Assembly: GCF_025854275.1 (NCBI RefSeq)
Contig: NZ_CP107567.1
Coordinates: 6,138,001-6,202,000 of the forward strand
Direction: 5' to 3'
Length of the DNA: 64,000 nucleotides
DNA from: Streptomyces peucetius
GTDB lineage: Bacteria > Actinomycetota > Actinomycetes > Streptomycetales > Streptomycetaceae
Every line of letters begins with the position of its first letter. The first letter of the stretch is position 1. Made by a program: the position numbers and the translations under genes. The notes under the pieces are model-generated. The model was not told the DNA's origin, did not search any database, and worked only from the letters and a program-made list of their open reading frames with translations. Shown here piece after piece: positions 45,475 to 45,690 of this stretch.

Positions 45475-45566
45475 GGAGAGGGCAGGATTCGAACCTGCGT
45501 GGGCTTTGTGGGCCCGACCGTGAGATTGCTCTCTGGTCCCCGTTGAGCCGCTCCGGGCACCTCTCC
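45475..45566 (-). tRNA. tRNA-Ser-like gene, copy 1, anticodon arm replaced by a GNRA-capped hairpin
   Basis: 92 nt on the minus strand. Acceptor stem GGAGAGG/CCTCTCC is perfect (7 bp). The D-arm is CCC/GGG with an AGCGGC loop (GG pair kept). The T-arm is GCAGG-TTCGAAT-CCTGC. The variable region holds a GGGC/GCCC stem, as in class II tRNAs. The base after the acceptor is G, the serine discriminator; CCA is not encoded. At the anticodon position (nt 29-51) there is GACC-A-GAGA-GCAA-TCTC-AC-GGTC: a 4+4-bp helix closed by a GCAA tetraloop. No 7-base loop with U at its second position can be drawn, so it should not decode. SerRS ignores the anticodon, so charging with serine is plausible. A pseudo-tRNA is the alternative. 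Confidence 0.85.
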
Positions 45567-45598
45567 TTGTGTGGCCGTTGGTGCGTGGCCGTTTTCGC

Positions 45599-45690
45599 GG
45601 AGAGGGCAGGATTCGAACCTGCGTGGGCTTTGTGGGCCCGACCGTGAGATTGCTCTCTGGTCCCCGTTGAGCCGCTCCGGGCACCTCTCC
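45599..45690 (-). tRNA. tRNA-Ser-like gene, copy 2, identical to copy 1
   Basis: All 92 bases equal copy 1, 124 bp downstream in coordinate, with only ~6 more shared flanking bases. The discriminator is again G (base 45598 on the minus strand) and CCA is again not encoded, although the following bases differ from copy 1. This is the promoter-proximal copy: its 5' end lies about 35 bases after the predicted start from the repeat promoter at 45732-45774. Exact identity of both copies, including the odd GCAA hairpin, argues for selection or a very recent duplication rather than decay. Confidence 0.85.

Follow-up and report, generated by a model that had tools for sequence, protein, structure and literature searches.

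A tRNA-Ser-like RNA family of Streptomycetaceae with a hairpin in place of the anticodon arm, proposed as a seryl carrier for VlmA-like transferases

The window, i.e., the whole analysed stretch of 64,000 nucleotides from Streptomyces peucetius (contig NZ_CP107567.1, positions 6,138,001 to 6,202,000), contains two short tRNA-Ser-like RNA genes, a divergent gene for a VlmA-like aminoacyl-tRNA transferase, a seryl-tRNA synthetase (SerRS), a SARP regulator and repeats of SARP type. R1 below denotes a covariance model built from 20 variants aligned with MAFFT. The features are the following:

45598..45690, minus strand: tRNA-Ser-like RNA copy 1 (the upstream copy), 5' end at 45690 and G73 at 45598, read from the sequence; 100.8 bits with R1, whose seed included one window copy
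45474..45566, minus strand: tRNA-Ser-like RNA copy 2, the same as copy 1, 5' end at 45566 and G73 at 45474, read from the sequence; 100.8 bits with R1, to be read in the same way
45640..45662 in copy 1 and 45516-45538 in copy 2, minus strand: hairpin in place of the anticodon arm, from the fold; hypervariable across the family
45866..46861, plus strand: VlmA-like aminoacyl-tRNA transferase (PF09924 LPG_synthase_C, Pfam 3.6e-68), divergent from the RNAs
44259..45053, minus strand: SARP (BTAD) regulator, PF03704 8.8e-50; proposed activator of the repeats
45748..45773, minus strand: triple SARP-type direct repeat TCAGn7TCAGn7TCAG, from the sequence, upstream of copy 1
47183..47208, plus strand: triple TCAGn7 repeat upstream of a fatty-acid desaturase gene; it falls within the ORF as listed (46842-48518), whose 5' part is over-long
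62240..62265, minus strand: triple TCAGn7 repeat, likewise within an over-long 5' part, here that of the ORF listed for an aldehyde dehydrogenase (60547-62322)
62292..62306, plus strand: TCAGn7TCAG pair in divergent orientation, from the sequence
44209..44223, minus strand: TCAGn7TCAG pair before a small ORF (43717-44181) and a carboxyl-transferase ORF (42148-43692)
51298..52575, minus strand: pathway-type SerRS, VlmL-like by context; TIGR00414 392.8 bits (cut-off 301.65)
55273..56265, minus strand: VlmB-like diiron protein, with a weak AurF match; 83% identical at locus L010 to a gene annotated "VlmB-like protein"
56262..57146, minus strand: flavin reductase, VlmR-like by context; PF01613 3.8e-32
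56816..57424, minus strand: small conserved protein beside VlmA genes, a candidate for the membrane protein VlmO by inferred label; matched in 32 of 32 VlmA regions of genomes without the RNA, with no Pfam match
59362..60501, minus strand: VlmH-like flavin N-monooxygenase of acyl-CoA dehydrogenase fold, PF02771 5.3e-7; labelled by fold and context

The PDB relatives of the VlmA-like protein, found by sequence, include MprF-type proteins and alanyl- and lysyl-PG synthases, which are tRNA-dependent aminoacyl-phosphatidylglycerol synthases. VlmA-like, VlmH/VlmR-like and VlmB-like genes, the combination by which an azoxy cluster was recognised, occur together in the window (VlmH and VlmR by fold and context). 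A few kb from the cluster lies a transposase-like ORF (40396-41745, minus strand; DDE_Tnp_1_4, 48.6 bits).

The two RNA genes (45690-45598 and 45566-45474, minus strand) are identical over 93 nt, that is, 92 nt plus the discriminator G, and the sequence-only reading of two identical tRNA-Ser-like genes carrying a hairpin for an anticodon arm is thereby upheld, now with exact coordinates. Read from the sequence, the arms are a 7-bp acceptor stem (GGAGAGG/CCTCTCC), a D-arm (CCCG...CGGG) with GG, a 17-nt variable region with its own stem, the T-arm GCAGG-TTCGAAT-CCTGC and G73, while CCA is not encoded. Where the anticodon arm is expected, RNA positions 29-51 read GACC-A-GAGA-GCAA-TCTC-AC-GGTC, a helix with a GCAA cap. 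The same hairpin and arms are present in the minimum-energy fold of a 93-nt stretch offset by two bases (45568-45476); the fold energy of -39 kcal/mol (z -1.95; 8 of 200 shuffles equally stable) is weak evidence taken alone. ARAGORN made no tRNA call in the whole window, and at the gathering score Rfam returned nothing for the window copies, including RF00005 and RF01852. With relaxed limits, the best tRNA match was tRNA-Sec (RF01852; 21.7 bits, cut-off 47), and a plastid 3'UTR model reached 22.2 bits (cut-off 68).

Elsewhere in the S. peucetius genome no copy was found, the sole other match being to an odd tRNA, over 23 nt of its T-arm and acceptor, and the window copies are not among the RF00005 matches listed for this genome. 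The four ordinary tRNA-Ser genes (GCT, TGA, CGA and GGA) make decoding independent of the anticodon-less RNAs. The odd tRNA is a class I tRNA-like gene at C1:7036937-7037009 (L003:1455-1529), called tRNA-?(ctga) by ARAGORN, which has the T-arm GCAGGTTCGAATCCTGC in common with the window RNA and scores 38.8 bits with R1. Two low-scoring tRNA-Met(cat)-like genes with mismatched stems were also seen (C1:6686661-6686733 and C1:2413428-2413497; 40.6 and 35.6 bits with RF00005).

By sequence, the RNA is more than a chance occurrence, since an exact 32-mer of it lies in six other Streptomyces contigs and it belongs to a broad, structured and covarying family. Blastn with the RNA found 13 Streptomyces plasmid records (30 places), and the alignment of the 20 variants has invariant termini around an anticodon region differing in length and sequence. 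Five tested seed variants scored 85.7-100.8 bits with R1, while the canonical tRNAs of S. peucetius scored at most 46.5 bits (its tRNA-Ser at most 46.0). At E<=1e-7, R1 found the family in 51 of 392 Streptomyces genomes, and in a sample of Streptomycetaceae, which overlaps with the first, in 21 of 200 genomes and 8 of 17 genera. The matches in Streptomycetaceae score 69 bits or more, with five weak exceptions at 57.6-65.5. One genome has up to 17 matches, S. coeruleorubidus ATCC 13740 has three copies at one locus (L007), and the copy numbers of genomes G003, G282, G327 and G365 are lower bounds (at least), as the genus scan scored the best 10 candidates per genome. Some copies form tandem arrays and many are dispersed over the chromosome, so the idea that the copies are confined to azoxy clusters was rejected, and their position inside such a cluster, which had been put forward for the window, is not general. 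Near full copies lie a weak match of 57.6 bits (L188:15314-15400, minus strand; 9 kb from a full copy), which is a decaying or diverged copy, and a remnant of a second copy (L008:6200-6221, minus strand) in which part of the T-arm and the 3' strand of the acceptor are left beside an intact copy.

Across the phylum, 165 of 296 genomes gave an R1 match at E<=1e-6, with all but the window at 62.8 bits or less among the matches listed. ARAGORN placed a canonical tRNA-Ser at the match in all 19 of the best cross-phylum loci (L309-L327), and a spread of the family over the phylum was rejected on these 19 loci; at about 57-63 bits R1 alone cannot part the family from foreign tRNA-Ser. True copies are labelled by ARAGORN in assorted ways, i.e., Cys, Ala, Gly, Arg, Gln, Met, Ser(act), Val, Thr and Pro (L005, L010, L011, L013-L019, L253, L256, L338-L340), and in plasmid records several of these places coincide with gaps in the locus tags, which suggests a similar treatment in public annotation. 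The family would probably account for misannotated tRNA genes in Streptomyces genomes.

Conservation was measured on 114 R1 matches in 93 regions (105 distinct copies), picked by the model and not by a T-arm pattern. The class II body, with its long paired variable arm, 7-bp acceptor, T-arm and G73, was found across the family. Columns at least 95% identical make up 14 of 14 in the acceptor, 16 of 17 in the T-arm and the single discriminator (G73 in 105 of 105), against 3 of 26 in the anticodon region, where the mean column entropy with gaps counted is 1.26 bits as opposed to 0.03-0.06 in the T-arm and acceptor. The D-arm GG (G18G19) is retained in the 20 aligned variants and in further copies inspected. 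None of the 105 copies could fold a 4-bp stem closed by a 7-nt loop that contains U33 and a serine anticodon. The terminal loop of the replacement arm has 3-6 nt in 103 of them and 7 nt in two (AATCTCG and AAACTCG). In a separate set of 126 distinct copies the hairpin is present in all, with a loop of 3-6 nt in 123; both this set and that of the promoter repeats below were selected with an exact T-arm pattern, a filter that overlooked copies in 8 of 91 regions. The GCAA-capped hairpin of the sequence-only reading is real in both window copies, but a GNRA cap as the key feature was rejected, since terminal loops in the family differ in size and sequence.

The helices covary. In the 105 copies, 11 pairs changed on both sides, with 86 such cells against a shuffled mean of 20.6 (0 of 500 shuffles as high), in an alignment that was itself fitted to R1. 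In the MAFFT alignment of the 20 variants there were 20 cells against 7.2 in shuffles (0 of 500 as high), whereas two other counts were unremarkable, the 6 pairs being equalled or exceeded in 56 of 500 shuffles and the 12 pair types in 249 of 500. The T-stem pair that we take to be 51-63 by standard tRNA numbering is A-U in 105 of 105 copies, as compared with G51-C63 in the four canonical tRNA-Ser of S. peucetius. Pair 49-65 is G-C in 103 of 105 copies and G-U in two, and never a weak A-U.

As to the genes that accompany the RNA, the commonest neighbour is the VlmA-like DUF2156/LPG_synthase_C family (24 of 91 RNA regions, median distance 166 bp). A VlmA at E<=1e-50 is present in 80 of 392 Streptomyces genomes, namely in 49 of the 51 with the RNA versus 31 of the 341 without it (Fisher p 1.8e-38, kinship ignored), and in the two exceptions (G168 and G300) a divergent VlmA, 37-38% identical, stands at a distance of about 2 kb from the RNA. 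In the Streptomycetaceae sample, a VlmA at E<=1e-40 accompanies 20 of 21 genomes with the RNA, and 11 further genomes have VlmA without it; the remaining genome (G428) has the RNA at 69.0 bits and no VlmA at this cut-off. The link is one of genomes, as six of eight further VlmA regions of RNA-bearing genomes (L253-L260) have no copy within about 6 kb. An ARAGORN tRNA-Pro in L260 was rejected as a family copy, being apparent coding sequence in which the family T-arm is absent. A VlmJ-like gene is found in 14 of 86 RNA regions (in 12 it starts within about 150 bp after the RNA) versus 2 of 32 VlmA regions of genomes without it (G073 and G086); in valanimycin, VlmJ-like kinases phosphorylate the serine-derived part (PMC9379638).

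The RNA also follows the VlmA phylogeny. A first tree (99 rows), which left out 18 of the 51 RNA-bearing genomes of the genus, the more divergent ones, required 4 changes of RNA status against a shuffled mean of 32.0. With those 18 genomes and two second VlmA genes added (119 rows; 77 from records with the RNA and 42 from records without it), 4 changes were again obtained against a shuffled mean of 34.8 (0 of 500 as low). This is a quick tree with an arbitrary root and no bootstrap, from which the VlmA of G454 (a fragment) and the second VlmA of G480 are left out. It has one group of 60 rows with 57 from RNA-bearing records (the rest being G073, G086 and G337), one of 19 rows, all with the RNA, and one of 40 rows that holds 39 without it and the second VlmA of G303; L187 and L189 sit on a very long branch, and the branch of G337 is long. 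Beside VlmA in genomes without the RNA, neither R1 nor ARAGORN detected a copy (40 VlmA regions, 32 of them from 31 such genomes), and a genome-wide search of these 31 with laxer filters found none, the best match (51.2 bits) being an ordinary tRNA-Ser by ARAGORN. Homologous clusters lacking such an RNA, which had been named as evidence that would speak against the carrier idea, do occur, but 39 of the 42 VlmA rows in question fall in the separate clade. The other three (G073, G086 and G337; two with VlmJ/VlmK) lie inside the RNA-bearing clade and are real counterexamples in which the VlmA pathway can run without the RNA.

SerRS is taken to recognise the variable arm and the acceptor end, not the anticodon. 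The SerRS of the window is 38% identical to the other SerRS of its genome, and the pathway type (57-100% identical to that of the window; housekeeping enzymes near 38%) was found in 29 of the 51 RNA-bearing genomes, counted by presence in the genome and not by location in an azoxy cluster. In G113 and G168 a 57%-identical SerRS lies on a different contig from the RNA. A full-length pathway-type SerRS was found in none of 28 genomes without the RNA (15 with VlmA and 13 without); one that has VlmA (G079) contains an 86-residue fragment, 66% identical. The pathway SerRS was thus rejected as an obligate partner, and the claim that the cluster enzyme does the charging is not a requirement, since no pathway-type SerRS was found in the other 22 of 51 genomes, in which a housekeeping SerRS must serve if the RNA is charged.

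The direct repeats have an 11-bp period, stand in promoter regions and are accompanied by a SARP gene in the cluster, which agrees with the binding of 11-bp direct repeats by SARP proteins (PMC5930380, seen in part). In the window there are 8 TCAGn7TCAG pairs, against a mean of 1.42 in 100 shuffles of which none reached 8, and they stand before the RNA and the desaturase gene, before the aldehyde dehydrogenase operon and on its divergent side, and before the small ORF with the carboxyl-transferase gene. The desaturase domain begins at residue 262 of its ORF (probable ATG at 47415), and in the aldehyde dehydrogenase ORF the domain begins at residue 119 and the homologue match at 62133; the repeat at 62240..62265 is probably the promoter of the main leftward operon. 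Over the family, 85 of 89 first copies have at least a pair upstream, and among those that are not adjacent to VlmA (a few of which have VlmA some kb off) the figure is 64 of 68; mononucleotide shuffles gave 0.0. The count of repeats is post hoc, as the motif was noticed in these very sequences.

In 85 regions there are 249 repeat pairs, of which 138 are found in the 140 bp before an RNA. The triple repeat has 4 sites in the 8.05-Mb genome of S. peucetius, three of them in the azoxy cluster. Among 97 triple sites in eight RNA-bearing genomes, 34 precede a known RNA copy, 29 more are within 40 kb of VlmA and 34 are elsewhere; six genomes without the RNA have 4, 2, 3, 18, 0 and 8 sites, so the motif is not exclusive. 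When the motif was relaxed to a GTCAG pair allowing 2 mismatches, its frequency was at background level (74 found, 87.4 expected). We propose that the SARP of the cluster binds and activates the TCAGn7 repeats. Dense divergent TCAGn7 arrays also occur away from VlmA (G003 C1:417364-417742 and G327 C6:7569-8033) and are possibly the target of another SARP.

The family, its fold and covariation, the lack of a serine anticodon, the co-occurrence with VlmA, the agreement with its tree and the shared promoter repeats are results at the level of sequence. On this basis the RNAs are very probably dedicated, non-decoding seryl carriers that feed the VlmA-like transferase, as had been suggested for the window; support comes from the VlmA co-occurrence and tree, the adjoining VlmJ/VlmK-type genes, the shared SARP-type repeats and the absence of a serine anticodon from all 105 copies. 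The RNAs would descend from a class II tRNA-Ser, be transcribed under the SARP regulator of the azoxy pathway and receive CCA after G73 in 3' maturation; they would then be serylated by the pathway SerRS in genomes that have it, or else by the housekeeping SerRS, and pass the seryl group to the VlmA-like transferase, which would use it to esterify an alkylhydroxylamine for azoxy-bond formation. The loss of the anticodon, together with A51-U63 as a weak EF-Tu T-stem pair, would keep this serine pool off the ribosome. Against the donor role, ordinary Ser-tRNA may suffice, as reviews pair VlmA with plain seryl-tRNA in the parts accessible to us, and against weak EF-Tu binding, the second strong EF-Tu pair, 49-65, is G-C in the family. 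The wider conclusion, which we hold to be probable, is that Streptomycetaceae encode a non-decoding tRNA family, its anticodon arm replaced, that would be dedicated to antibiotic biosynthesis and, in some lineages, amplified into a chromosome-wide gene set switched on by the pathway SARP, i.e., an aminoacyl-tRNA economy parallel to the ribosome and insulated from it.

Other readings were weighed against the same data. That the RNA regulates, as a charged or uncharged mimic titrating SerRS, VlmA or a regulator, or by sensing serine charging, is unlikely: a donor role does not follow from the dispersed copies and hypervariable arms as such, and the SARP gene of the window is found about 420 bp further downstream, in the same orientation, but the near-invariant acceptor end, T-arm and G73, with the paired long variable arm, are what an aminoacylated class II tRNA consists of, canonical tRNA-Ser accounts for the 19 best cross-phylum loci, and the recurring partner is a Ser-tRNA-consuming enzyme instead of a fixed downstream gene. 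It is quite unlikely that the RNA serves mainly as seryl donor for another serine-consuming enzyme with VlmA as a mere companion, a reading to which the large demand suggested by many-copy genomes and the case of G428 would point, since RNA status follows the VlmA tree and VlmA is the most frequent neighbour.

An attachment site, or a mobile tRNA-derived repeat spread as integration target or short element, would account for the many dispersed copies (up to 17 matches per genome), and tRNA 3' ends are the usual targets of integrases. We regard this as very unlikely, because the promoter repeats and the RNA are retained together, the helices covary, RNA presence tracks VlmA, and at 54 loci without VlmA or VlmJ neighbours no gene family occurs within 1 kb at more than 4 loci (neighbours not scanned for integrase domains). 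For a tRNA that still decodes, through an unusual anticodon loop (expanded, frameshifting or recoding), one may point to the two 7-nt loops, to the 23 of 105 copies in which a 4-bp stem could carry a 7-nt loop of some kind, and to the assorted anticodons assigned by ARAGORN; the reading is nevertheless highly improbable, as the loops vary in size and sequence, none can present U33 with a serine anticodon, and the genome has its four canonical tRNA-Ser. Degenerate pseudogenes surviving by chance are scarcely credible, for although standard tools missed the window copies, the termini are near-invariant, the other helices show compensatory changes over several genera and the promoter repeats are conserved.

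The carrier reading has partial parallels in known systems. The non-proteinogenic tRNA-Gly of Staphylococcus aureus keeps its anticodon and is otherwise an ordinary tRNA. Serving peptidoglycan bridges, it is likewise set aside from translation for an aminoacyl transferase (a role inferred here), and its weak EF-Tu binding is marked by two changes in the T-stem, A51-U63 and A49-U65 (PMC4052509, seen in part). According to the same part of that source it has lost G18G19, whereas the present family keeps G18G19, has G-C at 49-65 and differs further in its replaced anticodon arm, its antibiotic pathway and its SARP-type repeats. The valanimycin system (VlmL/VlmA) has the same type of neighbourhood, with a pathway SerRS, a Ser-tRNA-dependent transferase and azoxy genes; it is described with seryl-tRNA, and the accessible parts of its descriptions mention no dedicated RNA.

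The tmRNA, an aminoacylated tRNA-like RNA without an anticodon arm, carries alanine, has a template function and binds the ribosome; it resembles the family in the missing arm, but the family has a class II body with a replacement hairpin. Selenocysteine tRNA is of class II, is serylated and decodes UGA; its model (RF01852) gave the best sub-threshold tRNA match (21.7 bits), but in the window RNA the acceptor has 7 bp and a decoding loop is absent. Canonical Streptomyces tRNA-Ser shares the class II fold, G73 and an acceptor starting with GG, and differs in possessing an anticodon, in G51-C63 instead of A51-U63, and in its R1 score.

In open-licence papers (preprints not included) no description of an anticodon-less serine tRNA was found, and in the accessible part of a 2026 review of aminoacyl-tRNA-dependent enzymes in natural products (PMC12945691) the terms "anticodon", "dedicated tRNA" and "tRNA gene" have 0 occurrences. 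Judged by its sequences, the family is apparently an undescribed, new kind of RNA. If the carrier reading is true, a chargeable but non-decoding RNA would be a direct answer to a question left open by a 2014 review, in the part of it accessible to us, and the family would consist of tRNAs that take no part in translation; it would also offer a signature by which serine-type azoxy clusters can be mined, and a natural starting point for orthogonal aminoacyl donors.

Among the regions without the RNA, one VlmA group about 54-60% identical to that of the window (L222, L225, L230, L232, L234, L235, L237-L242, L244, L246, L247 and L249) has no match to the window VlmB within about 13 kb. For azodyrecin, the VlmA homologue was proposed to use alanyl-tRNA, and the cluster has no synthetase gene (PMC9379638). 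Five other regions without the RNA (L224, L227, L231, L236 and L252) form one VlmA clade and carry a distant relative (31-34%) of the PF04072 methyltransferase, the family of Ady1; they may be azodyrecin-like.
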